A stretch of 64,000 nucleotides of DNA from Oleomonas cavernae (GTDB taxonomy: Bacteria > Pseudomonadota > Alphaproteobacteria > Zavarziniales > Zavarziniaceae), in assembly GCF_003590945.1 (NCBI RefSeq), contig NZ_QYUK01000011.1:4248909-4312908 (forward strand). The letters run 5' to 3'. Below are positions 13,943 to 50,330 of this stretch, piece by piece (position 1 is the stretch's first letter; each line of letters begins with the position of its first letter). Position numbers and translations under genes: made by a program. Under the pieces are notes generated by a model that was not told the DNA's origin, did no database searches, and worked only from the letters and a program-made list of their open reading frames with translations.

Positions 13943-14626
13943 TTACCTTAAAAACAGCGCGATCAATTCCTCGATCGGCACCGGGGGCACTTCCTCCACC
14001 GGGGTCTTGGCCGGGCCGAAGACGGCCGCCGGGAAGGCGCGCAGGCCGTAGGTGAAGGCGATCGCGGCCAGGAAGCTCAGGAGAAAGGCTTCGAAGCTGG
14101 TCGCGGGCACGGCGCCGCGGTCGCGCGCGGCGTTGAACACCGGCTCCAGCGTCGCGACGCGGCTGCGGATGTGGCGTTCCACCAGCCATTCCAGCCGCTC
14201 CCCGCCCGAGGTCGCCTCGTTGAACACCATGCGCGCGTGCTCGGGGCAGACGGTGCAATAGTCGGCATAGGAATGCAGGGCCAGGCGCATCACCGCGCGG
14301 GCATCCTCATAGGTCCGGGGCAGGGGCATGCCGGCCACCGACGAGGGGAAATCGGCGAAGACCACGTCGACCGTCGCCTCCCACAGCGCCCGCTTGGTCT
14401 TGAAGTGATAGCCCAGGTGGCCCTGCTCGATGCCGGCCGCCGCGGCGATGGCGCGGACCGAGGCGCCGTCATAGCCCTTGGCGGCGAATTCCTCCTTGGC
14501 GGCATCGATGATCCTGGCCCGCAGGGCGGCCGATTTCTCGGCCCGGCTCTGCGGCGGCAGGGCGCGCGTGCCCCGGGTCAGCGAGCGCAGCTTGGCCTGA
14601 ATATCATCGAATACGGGACGCGACAC
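13943..14626 (-). CDS. TetR-family regulator of the SDR / COG3687 cluster
   Basis: A 227-residue TetR-type repressor. The N-terminal DNA-binding domain is clear (KEEFAAKGYDGASVRAIAAA, then GIEQGHLGYHFKTKRALWEA) with the HTH at about residues 55-75, preceded by a 30-residue extension. The ligand domain matches nothing I recognise. It is divergent from the SDR at 14780 with 153 bp between, so control of the downstream five-gene run is the natural guess. Confidence 0.85.
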   Translation of the reverse strand: MSRPVFDDIQAKLRSLTRGTRALPPQSRAEKSAALRARIIDAAKEEFAAKGYDGASVRAIAAAAGIEQGHLGYHFKTKRALWEATVDVVFADFPSSVAGMPLPRTYEDARAVMRLALHSYADYCTVCPEHARMVFNEATSGGERLEWLVERHIRSRVATLEPVFNAARDRGAVPATSFEAFLLSFLAAIAFTYGLRAFPAAVFGPAKTPVEEVPPVPIEELIALFLR

Positions 14627-14729
14627 GACCGCCCAAACTCCTCAAGATTCCGATGGTCACAATGCGCAAGGCGGGCGGATGATGCAACCGCTGCGCCTTG
14701 TAGGTGCAGCGCAACTGAATATTTGACGT

Positions 14730-14758
14730 TTGACAAAACTTTGGTCAGGCGATAAAAC
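14730..14758 (+). promoter_or_regulatory. Candidate sigma-70 promoter of the SDR / COG3687 run
   Basis: TTGACA at 14730-14735, a 17-bp spacer and TAAAAC at 14753-14758, 21 bp before the SDR start. The spacer contains half of TGAC-N9-GTCA, a possible TetR contact. Confidence 0.5.
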
Positions 14759-14779: not shown

Positions 14780-15652
14780 ATGGGTCGGGAAATGTTCGCA
14801 GGCAAGGTTGCCGTGGTCACGGGTGCCGCATCGGGTATCGGCCTGGCGCTGGCTCGGGACTTCGCCGCCCGCGGCTGCAAGCTGGCGATCTCGGACGTCA
14901 ATACCGAGAAGCTGGCCGCCGTTGCCGACGAGCTGCGCCAGGGCGGCACCACCGTGCTGGCCGAGAAGCTGGACGTCGCCGACCAAGCTGCATTCTTCGC
15001 CTATGCCGACAAGGTCATCGCCGAACTGGGCGGGGCCGATTTCGTCGTGAACAATGCCGGCGTCGCCCTGATGGCCAATGTGGCCACCATGCCGCTCAAG
15101 GATCTCGAGTGGCTGATGGGCATCAATTTCTGGGGCGTGGTCTATGGCACCAAGGCCTTCCTGCCGCACATGCTGGCCAAGGGTTCGGGCTCGATCGTCA
15201 ATATCTCCAGCGTCTTCGGCCTGATCGGCATTCCCGGGCAGAGTGCCTATTGCGCCGCCAAGTTCGCGGTCCGCGGCTTCACCGAAAGCCTGCGCCAGGA
15301 GGTGCACGGCACCGGTGTCCATGTCGGCTGCGTCCATCCCGGCGGCATCAAGACCAACATCGCCGCCTCGGCCCGCATGCTCGAACTGCCGCCGGGCGCT
15401 GAATCGGCGGAAGCCGTCGCGCGCCGCTTCGAACAGGTCGCCCGCACCACACCCGCCCAGGCAGCGGCCACGATCATCCGCGGCATCGAAAAGCGTTCCC
15501 GGCGCATCCTGATCGGCGGCGATGCCCGGCTCATTTCCGGCATCGTGCGTCTGCTTCCCGTGTCCTACACCGGCCTGATCCGCCGCGCCCTGGGGGCGGC
15601 GACCGGGGCCAAGACCAAAACCAGCCAACCCGCCATCACCGCCAGGCCGTAA
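14780..15652 (+). CDS. Classical SDR-family oxidoreductase
   Basis: A 290-residue classical short-chain dehydrogenase. Cofactor motif TGAASGIG at residues 14-21, NNAG, catalytic Ser in NISSV, and Tyr157/Lys161 in SAYCAAKFAVRGF are all present. Asp in ISDVN after beta-2 favours NAD over NADP. The C-terminal 40 residues are basic and may touch membrane, as in acyl-chain reductases of this type. It is the first gene after the tetR divergent promoter and is followed 32 bp later by four COG3687 genes. The substrate is unknown. Confidence 0.88.
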   Translation: MGREMFAGKVAVVTGAASGIGLALARDFAARGCKLAISDVNTEKLAAVADELRQGGTTVLAEKLDVADQAAFFAYADKVIAELGGADFVVNNAGVALMANVATMPLKDLEWLMGINFWGVVYGTKAFLPHMLAKGSGSIVNISSVFGLIGIPGQSAYCAAKFAVRGFTESLRQEVHGTGVHVGCVHPGGIKTNIAASARMLELPPGAESAEAVARRFEQVARTTPAQAAATIIRGIEKRSRRILIGGDARLISGIVRLLPVSYTGLIRRALGAATGAKTKTSQPAITARP

Positions 15653-15684: not shown

Positions 15685-16503
15685 ATGGGCATGGCAGAAA
15701 TCAAGCCGCGCAATATCAAGTTCGCCCTGACCGGCGAAGACAAGCGCAACTGGTTTGCCGGCAACCCGGTGGCGACCGCCATCATGGACGGTGCCTCGAT
15801 CCTGTTTCCCGTCGGCGAGACCTTCTTCATCGAGTCGGTGGTCTACTACAAGGACCGCATCGCCGATCCCAAGCTGCAGGCCGAGGTACTGGCCTTCCAG
15901 CAGCAGGAAGGCATCCACAGCCGTGAGCATCGCCGCTACAACAAGGCGATCGAAGCCTTCGGCGGCGATGTCCCGGCGCTGGAGCAGCGCCTGAAGGACG
16001 AGATCAAGAAGCTGGAAGCGGCCGGTACCTCGCCTGAATACAAGCTGGCGCTGACCTGCGCCTTCGAGCATTTCACGGCGATGCTGGCCGACGACCTGCT
16101 GGCCCACCCCGACTTCATGGCCGGGGCGGAGCCCGAGTTCTCCAAGCTGTGGCACTGGCACGCCATCGAGGAGGCCGAGCACAAGGCCGTCGCCTATGAC
16201 GTCTGGAACCTGGTCGGTCCCAAGGGGCTGAAGGGCTATCTCATGCGGGCGCGCGCCATGTGGAAGGCGACCCGGGTGTTCATGGGCCAGTCGACCTACA
16301 ATGCCGCCGGCCTGCTGAAGGCCCGCGGCGAGGGCGGCTATGGCCGCAACATGTGGAAGATGCTGCACTTCATCCTGGTCCGCCCGGGCGTGCTGCGGCG
16401 CAGCTTCCCGGCCTACCTGAGCTATTTCAAGCCGGGCTTCCACCCCTGGCAGCACGACAACCAGCACCTGATCGACAAGTTCAAGTCCGCCTACGAGGCG
16501 TGA
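15685..16503 (+). CDS. COG3687/PF10118 predicted metal-dependent hydrolase, paralogue 1
   Basis: A 272-residue protein of the PF10118 family, annotated only as predicted metal-dependent hydrolase. The conserved metal-type residues are visible: Glu75 and His78 in QQEGIHSREHRRYN, Glu128 in CAFEHFTA, and Glu163/His166 in WHAIEEAEHKAVAYDVW. The E-xxH / E / E-xxH pattern on predicted helices resembles a ferritin-like di-iron site more than a hydrolase; that is my inference. The C-terminal part (YLSYFKPGFHPWQHDN) is conserved in all four copies. AGGAG stands before the start. First of four tandem paralogues. Confidence 0.88.
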   Translation: MGMAEIKPRNIKFALTGEDKRNWFAGNPVATAIMDGASILFPVGETFFIESVVYYKDRIADPKLQAEVLAFQQQEGIHSREHRRYNKAIEAFGGDVPALEQRLKDEIKKLEAAGTSPEYKLALTCAFEHFTAMLADDLLAHPDFMAGAEPEFSKLWHWHAIEEAEHKAVAYDVWNLVGPKGLKGYLMRARAMWKATRVFMGQSTYNAAGLLKARGEGGYGRNMWKMLHFILVRPGVLRRSFPAYLSYFKPGFHPWQHDNQHLIDKFKSAYEA

Positions 16504-16567
16504 GTTCAGCTCGACCGGCGGCCGGCATGCCCGGCGGCCGGCCTCGGCTTTACGAGGAGAACGATCC

Positions 16568-17407
16568 ATGGGCCAGGTACCGATTACCCCACGCAACATC
16601 AAGTTCGCCTTGGGCGGCGAGGACAAGCGCAACTGGTTCGCGGGCGACCCGGTGCGCACGGCGATCCTCGACGGCGCCTCGATCCTGTTTCCCTATGGCG
16701 AGGGCAAGTTCATCGAATCCGTGATCCATTTCCGCGACCGCATCACCGATCCCAGGCTGCTGGCGGACATCAACGCCTTTGCCGCCCAGGAAGGCGTCCA
16801 CAGCCGCGAACACCGCCGCTACAACAAGGCGATCGAGGCTTTCGGCGGCGATATCGCCCGGTTGGAGAAGCGCCTGCGGGATGTCGTCGAAAAGATGGAG
16901 CGGCGCGGCGTCTCGCCTGAATACAAGCTGGCGCTGACCTGCGCCTTCGAGCATTTCACGGCGATGCTGGCCCACGAACTGCTGGCCGACCCGCATTTCC
17001 TGGACGGTGCCGAACCGGAATTCGCCAGGCTGTGGCGCTGGCACGCGATCGAGGAGGCCGAGCACAAGGCAGTGGCCTTCGACGTCTGGAACCAGGTCGG
17101 TCCCAAGGGGCTGCGCGGCTACCTGATGCGGGTGCGCGCCATGCTGAGGGCGACCCGGATCTTCACCAGCCAGACCCGGTTCAACACCCATGTCCTGCTG
17201 CGCGAACGCGGGCAGACCAATGTCCTGCGCAACGCGCGCCGTATCCTGCATTTCGCGGTGATCCGGCCGGGCCTGCTGCGCCGGTCGTTCGGCGTCTACC
17301 TCAGCTATTTCCGCCCGGGCTTCCATCCCTGGCAGCACGACGACCGTCACCTGATCGAACAGCACAAGAATTCCTATGCCGCCGAACCTGTCATCGCGGC
17401 CGAGTAA
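16568..17407 (+). CDS. COG3687/PF10118 predicted metal-dependent hydrolase, paralogue 2
   Basis: A 279-residue paralogue, the most divergent at the N-terminus (MGQVPITPRNIKFALGGEDK). It keeps QEGVHSREHRRYN, CAFEHFTAMLAHEL and WRWHAIEEAEHKAVAFDVW, so all putative metal ligands remain. It has an RRGVSPEYKLALTC loop as in copy 1, unlike the DDS-FKLAVTC loop of copies 3 and 4, so 1/2 and 3/4 may be two older pairs. An AGGAG site precedes the ATG. Confidence 0.88.
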   Translation: MGQVPITPRNIKFALGGEDKRNWFAGDPVRTAILDGASILFPYGEGKFIESVIHFRDRITDPRLLADINAFAAQEGVHSREHRRYNKAIEAFGGDIARLEKRLRDVVEKMERRGVSPEYKLALTCAFEHFTAMLAHELLADPHFLDGAEPEFARLWRWHAIEEAEHKAVAFDVWNQVGPKGLRGYLMRVRAMLRATRIFTSQTRFNTHVLLRERGQTNVLRNARRILHFAVIRPGLLRRSFGVYLSYFRPGFHPWQHDDRHLIEQHKNSYAAEPVIAAE

Positions 17408-17426
17408 CCAGCGAAGGAGTGATTAC

Positions 17427-18254
17427 ATGGGCAAGGCCGATATCGTCGCGCGCAACATCAAGTTCGCCCTGACCGGCGAGGACAAGCGCAACTGGTTTGC
17501 CGGCAACCCGGTGGCGACCGCCATCATGGACGGCGCCTCGATCCTGTTTCCGGTGGGCGAGACCTATTTCATCAACGCGGTCGTCCATTTCCGCGACCGG
17601 GTGAGCGATCCCAAGCTGCTGGCCGAGATTAACGGCTTCCAGCAGCAGGAAGGCATCCACTCGCGCGAGCATCGCCGCTACAACAACGCGATCAAGGCCT
17701 TCGGCGGCGATGTCGACGCGCTGGAGCAGAACCTGCGCGACGAGATCGCCCGCTGGGACGACAGCCCGGAATTCAAGCTGGCGGTGACCTGCGCCTTCGA
17801 GCATTTCACCGCCATCCTGGCCGACGACCTGCTGGCCCATCCCGATTTCATGGCCGGCGCCGAGCCTGAATTCTCCCGCATCTGGCACTGGCATGCGATC
17901 GAGGAAGCGGAACACAAGTCGGTCGCCTACGACGTCTGGAACATCGTGAAGCCCAAGGGCCTGAAGGGTTACCTGATGCGGACCCGGGCGATGCGCCTGG
18001 CCACCCGGGTCTTCCTGCAGCAGACCCACAACAATGCCTTCACCCTGCTGGCGGCCCGGGGCGAGGCGGCGACGGGCAGGAACATCCGCCGAGCCCTCTA
18101 CTTCGGGCTGGTGAAGCCGGGCACCCTGCGCCGCCAGATGGGCGCCTATCTCAGCTACTACCTGCCGGGCTTCCACCCCTGGCAGCACGACAACCGCCAC
18201 CTGATCGAGCAGCGCAAGGATTCCTACGCCGCCCCGATAACCGCGGCCGAGTAA
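17427..18254 (+). CDS. COG3687/PF10118 predicted metal-dependent hydrolase, paralogue 3
   Basis: 275 residues. The open frame reaches back to 17376 inside paralogue 2, but the ATG at 17427 aligns with its sisters and follows GAAGGAG. Its first 60 codons are almost identical in DNA to those of paralogue 1, although the remainder differs more, which suggests gene conversion or a recent partial exchange. The putative metal residues (EGIHSREHRRYN, FEHFTAILADDL, HAIEEAEHKSVAYDVW) are conserved. Confidence 0.88.
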   Translation: MGKADIVARNIKFALTGEDKRNWFAGNPVATAIMDGASILFPVGETYFINAVVHFRDRVSDPKLLAEINGFQQQEGIHSREHRRYNNAIKAFGGDVDALEQNLRDEIARWDDSPEFKLAVTCAFEHFTAILADDLLAHPDFMAGAEPEFSRIWHWHAIEEAEHKSVAYDVWNIVKPKGLKGYLMRTRAMRLATRVFLQQTHNNAFTLLAARGEAATGRNIRRALYFGLVKPGTLRRQMGAYLSYYLPGFHPWQHDNRHLIEQRKDSYAAPITAAE

Positions 18255-18277
18255 CTGGCAGACGAGGGAGTAGCTTT

Positions 18278-19087
18278 ATGGGTAAGGCAGTCATCAAGGC
18301 GCGGAACCTGAAGTTCGCGCTGGCGGGTGCGGACAAGCGCAACTGGTTCGGCGGCAATCCGCAGGCGACGGCGCTGCTGGACGGCGCTTCGATCCTGTTC
18401 CCGGTGGGCGAGACCTATTTCATCAATGCGGTGATCCACTACCGCGACCAGATTGCCGATCCCAAGCTGCAGGCGGAAATCACCGCCTTCCAGCAGCAGG
18501 AAGGCATCCACAGCCGCGAACACCGCCGCTACAACGAGGCGATCCAGGCCTTCGGCGGCGATGTTCCGGCGCTGGAGCAGAACCTGAAGGACGAGATCGC
18601 CCGCTGGGACGACAGCGCGATCTTCAAGCTGGCGGTGACCTGCGCCTTCGAGCATTTCACCGCCATCGGTGCCCATTTCGCCCTGGCCAAGGAAGGCTTC
18701 TTCGACAAGGCCGATCCCGAATACGCCAAGCTGTGGCGCTGGCACGCGATCGAGGAGGCCGAGCACAAATCGGTCGCCTATGACGTGTGGAACCAGGTCG
18801 GGCCCAAGGGCCTGGCCGGCTACCGCATGCGCATCAGGGCGCTGATGCTGGCGACCCGGGTGTTCAACGGCCAGACCCTGCACAATGCCCTGTCGCTGCT
18901 GAAGGCGCGGGGCGAGACCAACCGCTGGAAGAACCGCCTGGCGATCTGGAAGTTCGTGTTTGTCAGCCCCGGTTTCCTGTGGGGCATCCTGCCGGCCTAT
19001 TTCAGCTATTTCCTGCCGGGCTTCCACCCCTGGCGCCACGACAACCGCCACCTGATCGAGCAGTACAAGGTCGCCTACGAGGCGTAA
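18278..19087 (+). CDS. COG3687/PF10118 predicted metal-dependent hydrolase, paralogue 4
   Basis: 269 residues, last of the four. It shares QQEGIHSREHRRYN, FEHFTAIGAHF and WRWHAIEEAEHKSVAYDVW, but in the middle LADDLLAHPDF is replaced by HFALAKEGFFDKADPEYAKL, so its pocket may differ. GAGGGAG precedes the start. The run ends here, 9 bp before the convergent Bcr/CflA exporter gene. Confidence 0.88.
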   Translation: MGKAVIKARNLKFALAGADKRNWFGGNPQATALLDGASILFPVGETYFINAVIHYRDQIADPKLQAEITAFQQQEGIHSREHRRYNEAIQAFGGDVPALEQNLKDEIARWDDSAIFKLAVTCAFEHFTAIGAHFALAKEGFFDKADPEYAKLWRWHAIEEAEHKSVAYDVWNQVGPKGLAGYRMRIRALMLATRVFNGQTLHNALSLLKARGETNRWKNRLAIWKFVFVSPGFLWGILPAYFSYFLPGFHPWRHDNRHLIEQYKVAYEA

Positions 19088-21229: not shown

Positions 21230-22519
21230 ATGACCGTCATGACGCCCCCTACGGCGACCGCCCGCCGCGCGACACCGGGCCGTGTGCCCGCCTTCCCTGA
21301 AGACGGAATACCGCCCTTCGTCCATGCCTTGATGCCTGTTTCTCTGCCGGTGTGGCTGATGGAGCGCCTGATCGGGGGACCGGTGCGTCTCGATCGCGGT
21401 CTTCGGGAGGAGATGATCGAGGGTCTGTGGGAGGGTGACGAGCCCATGGACACGCTCTTGGACTGGATGTTTGCCGCCGGTGCCAGAGAGGGCAAACAGC
21501 TTTTCGAACAAGCCCTGGATCACGGCGTTGAAAGTGTCCCGGAAGCGCCGGAACCCTTGCGGGCGTTTTTTGCCGTGATCGATCGCCGCCCCGATTGGGT
21601 CGACATGAGTGCGGTGCAGGAAGGCATGCGCGCGTTGAACGCCGTTGGCGAAGTCGGCGCTTATCTGGGCCGTGACTATGCCCTGATGGGCGGCTATCTG
21701 CTTTCCGGCTTCAATGAGGCGCTGGTGATGACGGGCGCGCTGAACAAGGGTGCCGGCAGGCGGTTTGCCGAAACCATGTCCTGGGCGATGGACATCATAA
21801 CCCCTGAGGGCATGGAGCGCTTTGGTGTCGGCTTCAAGAGCACCATCCGCGTGCGCATGATCCACGCCCTGGTGCGCCGCAATCTGGTGCGCAGGCCGGA
21901 TTGGAATGCTGCTCGTCACGCCATGCCGATCAACCAGACCGATATGTGCGCCACGATCCTGGCCAACGCGCTTGTGGCCTTCGGTTCCCGTTGCCTGGGT
22001 GTCCCCATGACCAATGGCCAAATCGACGCCGTCATAAAGCATACGCGCTATGTGGGCTGGCTGATGGGCGTCAAGGGGCCCTGGCTGCCGACCTCGAATG
22101 CGCACGCCATTCGCCTGCTGCTGCATGCCACCAGTACCCAGCCGCGTGGGGAAGAGACCAGCCAGATCATGGCGAAGTCCCTGGCGGCCGAACCGCTGAC
22201 GCGCCACTACCCTTACTTCCGGGCCGTTCACCGCCGGCTGGAGCACTCGCGCCATCTCAGCATCAGCCGCTTTCTGCTCGGCAAACGCACGCTGGACACG
22301 CTTGGCGTCCCCTCGAATGTCCTGCCCTGGTATCCCGTCTTGACCATCGGCCCGCGACTCGCCTGGCAGGTTGCTCATCGACTAGTGCCGGGCGGCTATC
22401 GTCGCCTCTGCGAGCAGGGCCTGAAAAAGCAGCGGCAAATGCTCGAGGTCTTTCACGCCGGTGCCAAAAGCGCCGCCGGGATTATCAAGCCCGACGCCAG
22501 TCACCCGGCGCATGTTTAG
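21230..22519 (+). CDS. Latex-clearing-protein-like oxygenase (DUF2236 / MpaB family)
   Basis: A 429-residue protein resembling the Lcp/MpaB haem oxygenase family. The core pattern is clear: GRRFAETMSWAMDIITPEG, then the STIRVRMIHALVRRNLV segment with the likely haem-ligand His, then W-N-x-x-RHAMPINQTDM and HTRYVGWLMGV. Lcp cleaves polyisoprene oxidatively; DUF2236 relatives act on varied substrates, so the substrate is unassigned. No signal peptide is evident, unlike secreted rubber oxygenases. The start at 21230 follows CCAGGAG. Lower GC and flanking repeats suggest acquisition. Confidence 0.8.
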   Translation: MTVMTPPTATARRATPGRVPAFPEDGIPPFVHALMPVSLPVWLMERLIGGPVRLDRGLREEMIEGLWEGDEPMDTLLDWMFAAGAREGKQLFEQALDHGVESVPEAPEPLRAFFAVIDRRPDWVDMSAVQEGMRALNAVGEVGAYLGRDYALMGGYLLSGFNEALVMTGALNKGAGRRFAETMSWAMDIITPEGMERFGVGFKSTIRVRMIHALVRRNLVRRPDWNAARHAMPINQTDMCATILANALVAFGSRCLGVPMTNGQIDAVIKHTRYVGWLMGVKGPWLPTSNAHAIRLLLHATSTQPRGEETSQIMAKSLAAEPLTRHYPYFRAVHRRLEHSRHLSISRFLLGKRTLDTLGVPSNVLPWYPVLTIGPRLAWQVAHRLVPGGYRRLCEQGLKKQRQMLEVFHAGAKSAAGIIKPDASHPAHV

Positions 22520-28065: not shown

Positions 28066-28087
28066 TTGACACGAGACGTTGTCAGAT
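28066..28087. promoter_or_regulatory. Operator copy 2, tetR / monooxygenase promoter
   Basis: Same 22-bp motif (TTGACA-N7-TTGTCAGAT) as at 28032. TTGACA may double as a -35 element of one of the divergent promoters, giving repression by occlusion. Confidence 0.65.
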
Positions 28088-28114
28088 AGAAACCGCCCCC
28101 TGGAGGATGCCTCG

Positions 28115-29659
28115 ATGAATGCCCCGCTGCGCCACCCCCTGGTCACCAAGCCTGATTTCGACGTGGCGATCATCGGCACGGGCTTCTCGGGCCTGGGCAT
28201 GGCCATCCAGATGAAGAAGGCCGGGCTCGACGATTTCGTCGTGCTGGAAAAGGCCGAAACGGTGGGCGGCACCTGGCGCGACAACCACTATCCCGGTTGT
28301 GCCTGCGACGTGCAGAGCCACCTCTACTCCTTCTCGTTCGAGCAGAACCCCAACTGGTCGCGGATGTATTCGCCCCAGCCGGAAATCCGCGCCTATCTCG
28401 AGAAGTGCGCGACCAAATACGGCGTGCTGCCGCACATCCGCTTCGGTGTCCAGTTGACCGGTGCGGCCTTCGACGAGGCCGCCGGCCTGTGGCGCATCAC
28501 CACCAGGACCGGCGAGGTGGTCACCGCCCGCGCCGTGATCTCCGGCATGGGCGGCCTGTCGATCCCGGCCTATCCCAATATCAAGGGCCGCGAGACTTTC
28601 CAGGGCGAGACCTTCCATTCACAGAACTGGAACCACAGCTACGACCTGGCGGGGAAGACCGTGGCCGTGATCGGCACGGGTGCCAGCGCCATCCAGTTCG
28701 TGCCCCAGATCGCGCCCAAGGTGGCGGAACTGAAGCTGTTCCAGCGCACCGCCCCCTGGGTGATGCCCAAGCCCGACCGGGCGATCGGCGGCTTCGAGCG
28801 CGCCTTGAACAACTACGTCCCCGGCTTCCAGCGCGCCTTCCGCGAGGCGATCTACTGGTTCCTGGAAATGCGCGTCCTGGGCTTTGCCTACAAGCCTAAG
28901 CTGATGGAGAAAGTGCAGCACATGGCGCTGCGCTACATCGGCAAGCAGATCAAGGACCCGGTGCTGCGCGCCAAGGTGACGCCCGACTACACCATCGGCT
29001 GCAAGCGCGTGCTGATCTCCAATGATTACTACCCGGCCCTGACCCGCGAGAACGTCGACGTCATCACCACGGGGATCCGCGAGATTACGCCCAGCGGCGT
29101 GATCACCGACGACGGGGTCGAGCACAAGGTCGACTGCATCATCTACGGCACGGGCTTCAAGGCGACCGACATGCTCTCGGGCCTGCCGATCACCGGCATG
29201 GGCGGCGAGGACCTGAACAGCCGCTGGAAGCAGACGGGCGCGCAGGCCTACCTGGGCACCGCCGTGACCGGCTTCCCCAACATGTACTTCCTGATGGGGC
29301 CGAACACCGGCCTGGGCCATTCGTCCATGGTTTACATGATCGAAAGCCAGATCGCCTATGTGGTCGATGCCCTGAAGCTGATGCGGCGTGAAGGCTACAA
29401 CCACATCGACGTGAAGCCGCAGGTCCAGGCCGAGTATAACCAGCGCCTGGCGGGCAAGCTGGACGGCACGGTGTGGAACAACGGCGGCTGCGTCTCGTGG
29501 TACCGCGACGACCAGGGCCGCAACGTCACCCTGTGGCCGGACTTCACCTTCCGCTTCCGCCGCCAGACCGCCCGCGTGAACCCGACCGACTATGTCGCGA
29601 CCCCGGTGACCGTGGTTGCCGCCAATCGCAACGAGACGACGGCCATCGCGGCCGAATAA
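28115..29659 (+). CDS. Flavin-containing monooxygenase, Baeyer-Villiger type
   Basis: A 514-residue class B flavoprotein monooxygenase. The FAD Rossmann motif is IIGTGFSGLGMAIQ near residue 22, GGTWRDNHYPGCACDVQSHLY is typical, the fingerprint FQGETFHSQNW matches FxGxxxHxxxW (followed by N instead of P or D), and the NADPH motif is VIGTGASAIQFVPQIA. It probably inserts oxygen next to a ketone; the substrate is unknown. The ATG at 28115 follows TGGAGG. Control by the divergent TetR is likely. Confidence 0.88.
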   Translation: MNAPLRHPLVTKPDFDVAIIGTGFSGLGMAIQMKKAGLDDFVVLEKAETVGGTWRDNHYPGCACDVQSHLYSFSFEQNPNWSRMYSPQPEIRAYLEKCATKYGVLPHIRFGVQLTGAAFDEAAGLWRITTRTGEVVTARAVISGMGGLSIPAYPNIKGRETFQGETFHSQNWNHSYDLAGKTVAVIGTGASAIQFVPQIAPKVAELKLFQRTAPWVMPKPDRAIGGFERALNNYVPGFQRAFREAIYWFLEMRVLGFAYKPKLMEKVQHMALRYIGKQIKDPVLRAKVTPDYTIGCKRVLISNDYYPALTRENVDVITTGIREITPSGVITDDGVEHKVDCIIYGTGFKATDMLSGLPITGMGGEDLNSRWKQTGAQAYLGTAVTGFPNMYFLMGPNTGLGHSSMVYMIESQIAYVVDALKLMRREGYNHIDVKPQVQAEYNQRLAGKLDGTVWNNGGCVSWYRDDQGRNVTLWPDFTFRFRRQTARVNPTDYVATPVTVVAANRNETTAIAAE

Positions 29660-46735: not shown

Positions 46736-48430
46736 TCAAACGGACCGACCGTCCCGCGACTGCCGCCTGACGACGACGAAGCACAGCACGATGGCGAAGA
46801 GCCCAATCACCACTGAATAGAGGAAGAATGTGACATATCCAGCACCCAGCGCCGCAGGACTTGTCCCCGCCTTGGCCGCACCGGCGGCGAAGGCCTGGGG
46901 CGGCAGGTCGGACAGCCAGGGCATGACGGCCGAAAACAGCCCGCCGTCCTCAGCACCCCGGGCGGCGCCCTCGACGATGCGGCCCGACTGCGAGGCGATC
47001 AGCTTGCCGGGCAGGGCGTAGAGCGAGGAGAACAGGGCATATTGCGTGGCGGTGAAGCCGGCCGAGGTGAGCCCCGACATATAGGCGATCAGGCAGGTGC
47101 CGGCGAAGCCCGAGGCCAGGTTGTCGATGCCGATGGCGACGATCAGCGACGGCACATCGGGCCCCTGGAGCGCCAGCCAGGCAAAGACCAGGTTGCTGGC
47201 CGGGCCGGCGAAGGCGCCGACCAGCAGGGACCGGAGAATGCCGAACCGGGCCACGGCATAGCCGCCGGCAAAGACCCCTACCATGGTCATGACCAGGCCG
47301 AAGCCCTTGCGCACCTCGGCCACCTCGATCTTGGTGAAGCCTAAGTCGAGGTAGAAGGGATTCATGATGTTCAGCACGAAGTCCGACAGGCGGTAGACGC
47401 AGATCAGGGCCAGGATCGGCCCGGCCAGGCGGCCATAGCGGCGGAAGAACACCGCCAGCGGCGTGCCGAAGGCCTCGGCCAGGGTCCGGCCCGGCGGTGT
47501 TTCGATGCCGGGAATGGGGCAGCAGGCCACCACGATCAGGCCCAGCCCGACGATGACGGCGCCGAATTGCAGGAAGACGGCCTGCGGCGGCACGGTCCAC
47601 AGCGGGGCCAGGCCGAAGCCGTCGGGCGAGCCGACGGCGCTCGACAGCAGGGTCAAGGTGAAGGGATCGCCACTCAGGCCGGCACCGACGATCAAGGCGC
47701 CGATGAGCAGGATCGCCGCCCGGACCAGCCATTCGGCCGCGATCGCCGGCGTCAGGCCGGGGCGGCCGGCGCGCGGGGCGGGACGCGGCGCGCGGGATGC
47801 CTCGCGCGGGGCGGTCAGCACGCCGATCATGCCCACGATCATCAGGCAGGCCATGGCGGCATAGGAGAAATTCCAGGTGAAGGCCTCGGCCAGGGCCAGG
47901 GCCGCGCCGCCGGCGACCAGCCCGGCAATGCGATAGCCCCATTGATAGGCTGCGGCCATGGCACCCTGCTTGGCCCCTTCCACCGCCTCGATGCGCCAGG
48001 CATCGATGACGATGTCCTGGGTCGCCCCGGAAAAGCCGACGAACACGGCGAAGGCGGCGACCAGGCCCAGGTTGTCGGCCGGATTCTGCCCGGCGATCAG
48101 GATCAAGCCGGCCATCACCGCGACCTGAGCCGCCAGCATCCACGAGCGGCGATGGCCCAGCCGGCGCGACAGCAGCGGAATGTCGTAGCGATCGACCAGC
48201 GGTGCCCACAGGAACTTGGCCGAATAGGCCAGGGTCGCCAGGCTGAAGAAGCCGATCACCGCGAGCGAGACGCCGTCGTCGCGCAGCCAGCCCGACAGGG
48301 TGTCGAACACCAGCAGGTTGGGCAGCCCGGCGGAAAAGCCGAGCGCCAGCATGACCAGCACCCGCCGCTCGCCATAGACGGCCAGCGCACGCCACCAGGA
48401 GGGAGAGGGTTTCACCGACGAATCACTCAT
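46736..48430 (-). CDS. AmpG-like MFS muropeptide permease
   Basis: 564 residues with 12 or more membrane helices. The AmpG-type N-terminus GFSAGLPNLLVFDTLSGWLR and the motif SAKFLWAPLVDRYDIPLLSR, RLGHRRSWML are distinctive, as is SGATQDIVIDAWRIE. AmpG imports anhydro-muropeptides for cell-wall recycling. The protein is long because of a central roughly 100-residue insert (after TAPREASR). A single gene, with olsB downstream on the same strand at 170 bp. Confidence 0.86.
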   Translation of the reverse strand: MSDSSVKPSPSWWRALAVYGERRVLVMLALGFSAGLPNLLVFDTLSGWLRDDGVSLAVIGFFSLATLAYSAKFLWAPLVDRYDIPLLSRRLGHRRSWMLAAQVAVMAGLILIAGQNPADNLGLVAAFAVFVGFSGATQDIVIDAWRIEAVEGAKQGAMAAAYQWGYRIAGLVAGGAALALAEAFTWNFSYAAMACLMIVGMIGVLTAPREASRAPRPAPRAGRPGLTPAIAAEWLVRAAILLIGALIVGAGLSGDPFTLTLLSSAVGSPDGFGLAPLWTVPPQAVFLQFGAVIVGLGLIVVACCPIPGIETPPGRTLAEAFGTPLAVFFRRYGRLAGPILALICVYRLSDFVLNIMNPFYLDLGFTKIEVAEVRKGFGLVMTMVGVFAGGYAVARFGILRSLLVGAFAGPASNLVFAWLALQGPDVPSLIVAIGIDNLASGFAGTCLIAYMSGLTSAGFTATQYALFSSLYALPGKLIASQSGRIVEGAARGAEDGGLFSAVMPWLSDLPPQAFAAGAAKAGTSPAALGAGYVTFFLYSVVIGLFAIVLCFVVVRRQSRDGRSV

Positions 48431-48547
48431 GCACTATCCTCGCCCGGCCAGCCAGCTCTTGCGAGGGAGTCGTTCTTTGCCGCTATTACGACAGCATCAC
48501 TTTCACCCCATGCGCTTGTCGCGTCGATTGCCGTCGCTTCACGGACA

Positions 48548-49498
48548 TCAGGAGCCGCTACCCAAAACCTTGTCGATCAGTTCCTGTGTGCGGGGCCCGA
48601 CATCACTCCGAAGCCCATTGAAGGAGAGGGCCAGGGCCGCACGATCAGCCTCCTTGAGGTCTGGATAAGCACCGTGGATGACCAGAATGAGATTGTACTT
48701 ACCATTTTCGGAGGCCGTTCTTATCAGTTCCAGCGCGATCTTCACGGCTCTCGGATCCCCCAGATCGTACAGAAACTCGGAGGCAAAGACCCTAACCGTT
48801 CTATCTTCATCCCCGGCCATCTGGCAGAGAACCTCCAACGACTGGTCGTCGATCAACTTCGCAATTTCTCGCCGCTCGGACTTGTGCTCCCTCATATATT
48901 CCGTCAGAGCAACAGCAACACCCAGCCTGACGCGATATGAGTCCTTCCGCTCTTTCAAGCGCTCAAGCATCGGTGGGATTGCCTTCATTCCCTCCTGGTA
49001 GAGAAGCGATCGGGCCTCCCGACGGACCGTGGTCGAATCCGACTCCAGATCATCAAGGATGTCAGCGAAGTTGATAGCGGGGTCGGCTATTGCCGTCGAT
49101 ATCAGGGAAAAATCACCTTGCCAAACGAACGGAGAGAGCGGACGAGAACCGCCCTGGCACGGCCCGACATCGGCAATTTTGCGCACGCCTTCACCAATAA
49201 GGGCGCCGGCTCGCCGATCAAATCGCCATTGCAGTATTTTTCCCGAGCCGAGGTAGGGCTCGACTTCCGCCTTGGACACGCATTCGAACGGGTACTCCTG
49301 CGGATCTTCCGTATCGCTGCCCGGAAAACTAATTATCACCGACAATCTCTGCGAATTTATGCCTCTACTAATTACTATGAATTCGTAGGATCGACCGCGA
49401 TCAGCTCCATAATAACTCTTGTCGCCTGCATATAGCTCCACTCTGGATCCTTGAATATCCCCATCTATACGTATTATTACCATATCATCGCGCATCAA
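48548..49498 (-). CDS. HEAT-repeat protein of a three-gene cassette
   Basis: 316 residues, third gene of a tight minus-strand cassette. The first 125 residues are mixed strand/turn and not recognised (YAGDKSYYGADRGRSYEFIV, ECVSKAEVEPYLGSG). From about residue 145, HEAT-like helical repeats appear: DDLESDSTTVRREARSLLYQ, MAGDEDRTVRVFASEFLYDL, LGDPRAVKIALELIRTASEN. HEAT repeats suggest a protein-binding role. GC is clearly below the window average. Its start abuts the previous stop. Possible roles include immunity or scaffold; no proven function. Confidence 0.7.
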   Translation of the reverse strand: MMRDDMVIIRIDGDIQGSRVELYAGDKSYYGADRGRSYEFIVISRGINSQRLSVIISFPGSDTEDPQEYPFECVSKAEVEPYLGSGKILQWRFDRRAGALIGEGVRKIADVGPCQGGSRPLSPFVWQGDFSLISTAIADPAINFADILDDLESDSTTVRREARSLLYQEGMKAIPPMLERLKERKDSYRVRLGVAVALTEYMREHKSERREIAKLIDDQSLEVLCQMAGDEDRTVRVFASEFLYDLGDPRAVKIALELIRTASENGKYNLILVIHGAYPDLKEADRAALALSFNGLRSDVGPRTQELIDKVLGSGS

Positions 49499-49735
49499 CT
49501 AATCAACTACCAGGAGCAGTACTATCGATATGGCGGCCACGCCGGTGACGACGGCCCCTTTGTGCTTGATCGTTGCTGTTGACCCAAATGCGCCCAAAAT
49601 GATTCCCAAGCCGCAACACAAAATCAGCAAAGAGGTTGTCGATGCGATAAGTGACATCGACATGCTGATGCCGCCCGCAGCCGCAAGCATGAGGCCGATG
49701 ATGAGCGCGGGCCAAAATATGTACTTTTGATCCAT
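49499..49735 (-). CDS. Small three-helix membrane protein of the cassette
   Basis: 78 residues: three predicted membrane helices (FWPALIIGLMLAAAGGISM; STTSLLILCCGLGIILGAFG; AVVTGVAAISIVLLLVV) with short loops. The ATG at 49735 is preferred to 49801, which would overlap the amidase gene. Size and topology resemble a holin or a membrane immunity protein, but there is no sequence match I can name. It is 7 bp after the amidase gene and directly before the HEAT gene. Confidence 0.6.
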   Translation of the reverse strand: MDQKYIFWPALIIGLMLAAAGGISMSMSLIASTTSLLILCCGLGIILGAFGSTATIKHKGAVVTGVAAISIVLLLVVD

Positions 49736-49742
49736 TGTATCC

Positions 49743-50330
49743 TCATCCAGAAAGGACGTTGCCCAGTCCGGCGGCGTCATGGTCGCCGGCATGACGCTCA
49801 ACGATCAGTTGATTGACTTCGTCGATAACCTCCTGCTTCCGGACATTTTTTCCGGGGCATGCGTGATCGGTAAGGGGATCTTCGTAATGAAGCTTCATTG
49901 CTGAAGTATCGAGGCCTAAGATTGCCGAAAGCGTTGCTATCGCCGCCACGGTATTCTTTCTAACTTTCAGGCCCCGGCCGGACGAAAAGGACTCCGTCTC
50001 GAAATCGCCAAGCATTTCAGCGCCAATGGATACTTTGTTCCATGAGGGAGAGTGGGTACCGGAAACCGTCAGCGGCGTGAAAACCCATATCGCCAAGTCA
50101 TCGATAAAGAGATGAGGTCCGGCTTTCCACCCTTTTTGATCTCTGTAGTAAGCTTCCAGATTGGCCATGTGGGATTTCTTGAAGCCGTTCGGTCTCTGGG
50201 CCAAAGACGGTATTGCTGTGTTGTGCAGGGTAATGAAGTTGGGCCGCCAATTTATCCATTTCAATTGATGGCAGTAGTTGTCAAATGTGCTCTGCGTAAA
50301 GGATTCCCCGACGATCCCCTTCCAGCTCAT
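49743..50330 (-). CDS. Amidase_2 / PGRP-type N-acetylmuramoyl-L-alanine amidase
   Basis: 195 residues with the T7-lysozyme-like amidase fold. The putative zinc ligands are His36 (FITLHNTA), His148 (MKLHYED) and Cys158 (DHACPGKNV), with GWKAGPHLFID as the core strand pair. By family it would cut the bond between MurNAc and L-Ala in peptidoglycan. There is no signal peptide, so it resembles phage endolysins or secreted antibacterial effectors that need another export route. First gene of the lower-GC three-gene cassette. Confidence 0.82.
   Translation of the reverse strand: MSWKGIVGESFTQSTFDNYCHQLKWINWRPNFITLHNTAIPSLAQRPNGFKKSHMANLEAYYRDQKGWKAGPHLFIDDLAIWVFTPLTVSGTHSPSWNKVSIGAEMLGDFETESFSSGRGLKVRKNTVAAIATLSAILGLDTSAMKLHYEDPLTDHACPGKNVRKQEVIDEVNQLIVERHAGDHDAAGLGNVLSG

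Follow-up and report, generated by a model that had tools for sequence, protein, structure and literature searches.

PF10118, a family with four tandem copies in Oleomonas cavernae, most likely comprises ferritin-like di-metal oxygenases

The stretch of Oleomonas cavernae DNA analysed here (64,000 nucleotides, called the window) carries four tandem genes of the PF10118 family behind a gene for a short-chain dehydrogenase/reductase (SDR). Annotated records call PF10118 'metal-dependent hydrolase'. Our data suggest that it is most likely a family of ferritin-like di-metal oxygenases and not of hydrolases, and the di-iron-like character proposed in a preliminary description of this DNA is well supported by structure prediction, residue conservation and profile comparison. 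The four copies, all on the + strand, are M1 (15685-16503, 272 aa), M2 (16568-17407, 279 aa), M3 (17427-18254, 275 aa) and M4 (18278-19087, 269 aa). They match PF10118 ('Metal_hydrol') over the whole or nearly the whole model with E values of 9.8e-80, 4.5e-81, 6.8e-76 and 5.1e-77, respectively, and with 255.7-272.6 bits against the Pfam curated cut-off of 33.2 bits. M2, M3 and M4 are 68%, 75% and 68% identical to M1, and their alignment with M1 indicates that its putative site residues are retained. Enzymes of this kind are already known, but in the literature searched we found no description of where PF10118 belongs among them, of its QExxH/HxxEExxH signature or of the SDR arrays. No study of PF10118 function was found in that literature, where one paper names PF10118 and none names COG3687 or four other identifiers; in a passage of one study, PF10118 is counted among protease groups (PMC8960859).

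The residue pattern of the family is very strict. Of 92 distinct PF10118 domain sequences, 84 spanned most of the profile and were kept, and 8 partial ones were dropped; the 84 come from the best-scoring loci, and the addition of 20 more, including the lowest-scoring members, brought 17 new sequences and a total of 101. With M1 numbering, E45, E75, H78, E128, H159, E162, E163 and H166 are invariant in 101 of 101 homologues. Position 74 holds Q in 96 sequences and E in the five lowest-scoring new members, and position 165 is E in 96. All ten positions, Q74 and E165 included, are invariant in the set of 84, and among 48 members with less than 62% identity the 11 invariant columns are these same ten and one proline. 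The motif QExxH is thereby found in 96 of the 101 sequences, all four window copies included, and HxxEExxH in every one; the paired E and ExxH ligand motifs of ferritin-like di-metal carboxylate proteins are likewise invariant throughout. The preliminary description quoted the motifs EGIHSREH, FEHFTA and EEAEHK, which are exact, and named E75, H78, E128, E163 and H166 as residues of a possible metal site. All five are indeed invariant, but the list was incomplete, as E45, H159 and E162 are equally so, and it is the addition of E45 and H159 that completes an AurF-type ligand set.

The residues E45, E75, H78, E128, H159, E163 and H166 follow the ligand order of the di-iron N-oxygenases DnfA, AurF and CmlI (PF11583), with identical spacing within ExxH and HxxxExxH, and thus correspond to the seven ligands (three His and four carboxylates) of the AurF family, although E128 is shifted by a gap in the profile alignment. 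For AurF, the residues E101, E136, H223 and E227 enter this comparison. In DnfA the ligands are E88, E123, H126, E182, H209, E213 and H216, and a passage of the source says that they are identical in AurF and CmlI (PMC9478400). A passage on AurF states that D135 and D226 support two of the His ligands and gives H139, H230 and E196 as other residues (PMC12101540). Helix placement, the structural match to AurF and CmlI and the profile alignment together make it most likely that the seven PF10118 residues form one di-metal site, with Q74 and E162 as its probable second sphere.

It is in this second sphere that PF10118 departs from AurF, which has an acidic residue before each ExxH: PF10118 has Q (96/101) or E (5/101) in place of D135, and E (101/101) in place of D226. 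The residue before the first site ExxH is D or E in 28 of 28 AurF-model proteins examined (from 34 non-PF10118 proteins obtained; in four of them, stray ExxH matches upstream of the site were disregarded on inspection). CylC-type dimetal halogenases, as far as their motifs are printed in a passage of PMC12101540, have Q at the first second-sphere position (QExxH) and retain HxxDExxH. They share QExxH and the AurF-like three-His arrangement with PF10118, but PF10118 has HxxEExxH at the second motif, and its five divergent members are without the Q. Since QExxH occurs in 96 and HxxEExxH in all 101 sequences, PF10118 carries the AurF ligands and mostly the CylC residue at one of the two second-sphere positions.

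The predicted fold is in line with such a site. A first AlphaFold2 model, built on four sequences, was of low quality (pLDDT 65.6), whereas a second one, from 15 sequences, gave a helical bundle with pLDDT 87.4 and pTM 0.88. A structural second look with the latter placed CmlI (Z 14.5) and then AurF (Z 13.6) on top, and all 50 matches listed belong to the R2, R2-like oxidase, methane monooxygenase, AurF or CmlI families, which are di-metal carboxylate proteins; the poorer model gave matches of the same kinds. Plain Foldseek was weak by itself, with 44 of the 50 matches listed being ferritin-like. Ribonucleotide reductase R2, the R2-like ligand-binding oxidases and the soluble methane monooxygenase hydroxylase share the ferritin-like di-metal bundle with Z 11.9-13.1, but they have a two-His/four-carboxylate site, unlike PF10118 with its third invariant His. 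A two-His/four-carboxylate site is also what a passage of PMC12101540 gives for most di-iron hydroxylases.

Sequence profiles point to the same relatives, with a similarity to the AurF group that is weak but significant. The AurF Pfam model (PF11583) was matched by 10 of the 48 members at E<=0.1 (best 6.2e-5) and a Rubrerythrin model by three; when a genome was searched with the AurF model, three PF10118 genes (at loci L124, L126 and L134) came up independently. In hhalign, PF10118 against 17 three-His AurF-like proteins scored 30.8, compared with at most 16.6 in 60 column shuffles, and placed E45, QExxH and HxxEExxH on matching columns. A smaller set of seven AurF-like proteins, whose profile itself finds the solved AurF and CmlI, scored 29.0, and none of 60 shuffles exceeded 18.8. 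Unrelated helical proteins (TetR) scored 15.6 and reversed alignments 11.7-16.1. The third His is absent in 11 of the 28 AurF-model proteins examined, and this two-His group fits PF10118 less well: its scores were 21.3 and 23.4, with column shuffles reaching 24.9, and the alignment scoring 21.3 was out of register. The NCBIfam models gave no match over cut-off for the four copies and only one weak match, to M4, and a scan of viral contigs yielded no relative.

The family also has a recurrent genomic neighbour. Of 31 non-redundant PF10118 loci, 10 have an SDR gene no more than 1 kb away, compared with 2 of 40 background positions (Fisher P 0.003); at 3.5 kb the figures are 15 of 31 and 2 of 20 (P 0.004). 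The SDR-PF10118 neighbourhood, whose conservation had been suggested as a check, thus recurs across genomes, five Zavarzinia genomes among them. For TetR the corresponding counts are 5 of 31 versus 2 of 40 (P 0.12, not significant) and 11 of 31 versus 2 of 20 (P 0.04, weak). The 31 loci were kept from 46 after dropping those with a PF10118 protein at least 62% identical to one kept, and the background consists of 20 regions in nine genomes. Neighbour counts were restricted to SDR and TetR on six-frame open reading frames (ORFs), with profiles seeded with the window proteins and grown on genes of the same loci, which gives a mild bias. Counted in the genome of O. cavernae by itself, the SDR pairing is modest: with 110 SDR matches merged into 103 places and 14 PF10118 matches into 9 loci, an SDR lies no more than 1 kb away at three of the nine loci (P 0.019) and no more than 5 kb away at four (P 0.077). 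Other recurrent neighbours are AraC with an arabinose-type binding domain (cluster c5, in 8 of the wide loci examined), an FMO-like monooxygenase, AMP-ligase, acyl-CoA dehydrogenase, an alpha/beta hydrolase (also fused to SDR) and DUF1302/DUF1329; these names come from a Pfam scan of one or two representatives of each sequence cluster, and their recurrence is given without a background count. Such neighbour sets would suit a stepwise oxidation of hydrophobic compounds.

The fold type, the invariant ligand set, the AurF-like relation and the recurrent SDR are thus backed by computation, and from here we infer how the locus may work. A TetR-regulated operon would encode an SDR together with four ferritin-like di-metal enzymes that are closely related, each bundle holding two irons by E45, E75, H78, E128, H159, E163 and H166. 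Once reduced, the site would activate O2 for the oxygenation of a small hydrophobic substrate, C-H hydroxylation being the most likely reaction, and the SDR would then oxidise the resulting alcohol to a ketone or aldehyde. TetR may bind near 14720-14758 and release when the substrate is present. The four copies would divide the labour by differing in substrate range, because the site is fixed while the remainder of the protein diverges. For electrons the enzymes would depend on a general-purpose ferredoxin or flavin reductase with its gene elsewhere, as the operon is without a reductase gene. Taken as a whole we regard this scheme as fairly probable, with the O2 chemistry more certain than the substrate.

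Several results weigh against it. The three PF10118 genes picked by the AurF model reach 19, 21.5 and 24.7 bits and so fall below its curated cut-off of 29.6. The hhalign probability with the three-His set is only 17% (P 0.0014), and the gap in that alignment misplaces E128. Foldseek gave a best E of 0.11, with no match below 0.001, and six of the 50 matches listed are unrelated helical proteins; moreover, helical bundles in general can reach Z 13-14, and the fold alone is therefore not proof. Neither the four copies nor the 48 members found a relative by sequence among solved structures, where all matches were at chance level. At 21 of the 31 loci there is no SDR within 1 kb, the operon encodes neither ferredoxin nor reductase, and it is only the neighbouring genes that point to C-hydroxylation and a hydrophobic substrate.

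The sharing of all seven ligands with AurF, CmlI and DnfA, and the position of CmlI and AurF as top structural matches, would also fit a family of N-oxygenases that oxidise an amine or hydroxylamine, with the SDR acting elsewhere on the molecule. A homologue on a Pseudomonas aeruginosa plasmid record (L138:5830-7807) lies divergent from a gene annotated oruR, an ornithine utilisation regulator, which is in agreement with this. However, the AurF aspartate before the first ExxH is replaced by Q in 96 of 101 members, and the SDR, FMO-like, AMP-ligase (acyl-activating) and acyl-CoA dehydrogenase neighbours indicate carbon oxidation and not a known N-oxidation pathway. Three-His sites also work on C-H bonds, as in the CylC-type halogenases according to a passage of PMC12101540. 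We consider N-oxygenation unlikely but still credible.

The CylC-like Q invites a bolder version of the C-H oxygenase reading, to which we give a low probability, slightly reduced by the divergent members without Q74 or E165: the main part of PF10118 would be a large group of bacterial enzymes related to the CylC halogenases, with a QExxH/HxxEExxH di-iron site for functionalising unactivated C-H bonds in the catabolism of hydrophobic molecules. Some members would perhaps transfer halide or other ligands, and the paralogue arrays would offer one SDR different regiospecificities.

R2 and the R2-like oxidases come within about 2 Z units of CmlI, so a di-metal site without an organic substrate, in a redox, oxidase or ligand-binding role, has to be considered. 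The invariance of the third His (H159) and the poorer fit of the two-His AurF-model group to PF10118 speak against such a role, and the recurrent SDR suggests a metabolic step; we see only a slight chance for it. That PF10118 members are outright CylC-like halogenases, or C-H enzymes transferring halide or another ligand, would agree with the CylC-type QExxH (in the printed form of PMC12101540) in 96 of 101 sequences and with three His and a fixed Glu. It appears very improbable in view of HxxEExxH in 101 of 101 where CylC-type enzymes have HxxDExxH, of E instead of Q in five divergent members, and of up to 13 copies per genome with catabolic-type neighbours, which do not suggest natural-product halogenation; the CylC likeness was judged from printed motifs. 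The database name has in its favour the Pfam and record names only, and a hydrolase is very unlikely given a fold and ligand set that match O2-activating di-metal proteins, a single weak match of the 48 members to other hydrolase families at E<=0.1 (AHH nuclease, 0.085) and no experimental support found in the literature searched.

If PF10118 members are di-iron oxygenases, as we prefer, a widespread family may bear the wrong name, many genomes would conceal C-H or N-oxidising enzymes under it, and the CylC-like second-sphere chemistry would gain a broader, possibly catabolic, relative. Of 199 genomes sampled across the phylum, 37 have PF10118 matches, as do 80 plasmid records, 57 of the latter from Acinetobacter. 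On the Acinetobacter radioresistens plasmid pAR3 (L137:2875-10481) a PF10118 gene lies between two Tn3-like ISAcsp1 transposase genes, in a segment that also holds AraC, 2Fe-2S protein, cytochrome P450, FAD oxidoreductase, TetR and two PaaI thioesterase genes; the order on an A. radioresistens plasmid is 2Fe-2S protein, cytochrome P450 and FAD oxidoreductase genes, then an IS5-type gene, then the PF10118 gene.

As to the layout in the window, ORF coordinates and matches to PF10118, PF00106 and PF00440 bear out the early picture of four full-length paralogues behind an SDR and divergent from a TetR. The SDR family oxidoreductase (14780-15652, + strand, 290 aa, PF00106 E 2.8e-56) is the first gene of the operon. 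The TetR-family regulator (13943-14626, - strand, PF00440 E 9.4e-15), which adjoins the SDR in the five Zavarzinia genomes, is the probable repressor. Between them lies a 39-base block (14720-14758, + strand), conserved in the aligned upstream regions of those genomes and a candidate promoter/operator; a scan for promoter consensus found no site. Sequences of the GGAG or GAGG type precede all five + strand genes, so each copy has its own ribosome-site-like sequence as had been described, and the gaps between the PF10118 copies are 19-64 bases. M3 has an in-frame ATG further upstream, at 17376 within M2, but the start at 17427 is preceded by GGAG and aligns with the starts of the other copies. 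The unit can be delimited as TetR | SDR-M1-M2-M3-M4, because genes for urease alpha, UreF and a CobW/HypB/UreG-domain protein flank it upstream and a convergent MFS transporter gene downstream.

Five Zavarzinia genomes (G000, G001, G002, G004 and G005) retain the TetR-SDR-PF10118 arrangement, which together with a similarity far beyond chance argues that the four-paralogue locus is not a chance assembly. G001, G002, G004 and G005 have two PF10118 copies at the matching locus; a sixth genome, G003, has three, one cut by the contig end, on a 3.6-kb contig too short to reveal an SDR. In a 21-row tree (midpoint root, seven open forks) 14 copies from the operon locus form one clade (100/100) with two older lineages inside; M3 and M4 belong to one, M1 attaches close to the other at one of the open forks, and M2 is the earliest branch. 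From this grouping and the two copies in four relatives, the four copies are a genus-level tandem expansion, and 'four' is therefore not itself the system. Four retained copies with a paired oxidoreductase had been taken to suggest a pathway. The SDR pairing proved real and recurrent; that a pathway exists, and that it would act on a lipid or isoprenoid, we can only infer. The dN/dS values (0.46-0.53 between window copies, 0.07-0.29 for four cross-genome pairs) are consistent with purifying selection.

Thirteen PF10118 genes, at 9 loci, are present in the O. cavernae genome. One of these genes is split between two frames (L076:5924-6826), as is one SDR gene (C11:3745377-3745945), apparently by frameshift mutations or assembly errors. 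A single frame of 586 codons (L077:6149-7906) holds two complete tandem PF10118 domains with a junction that looks out-of-frame, and has FMO-like and alpha/beta hydrolase genes immediately upstream. Frames of 817-821 aa, considered as PF10118-reductase fusions, were rejected, because the stretch upstream of the domain appears to be other genes read in the wrong frame. Near the operon, the window also holds an MPAB/Lcp-type (rubber oxygenase-like) gene (21230-22516) and an FMO-like monooxygenase gene (28079-29656), and the G+C content at 48001-50000 is 0.570 compared with about 0.66 around it.

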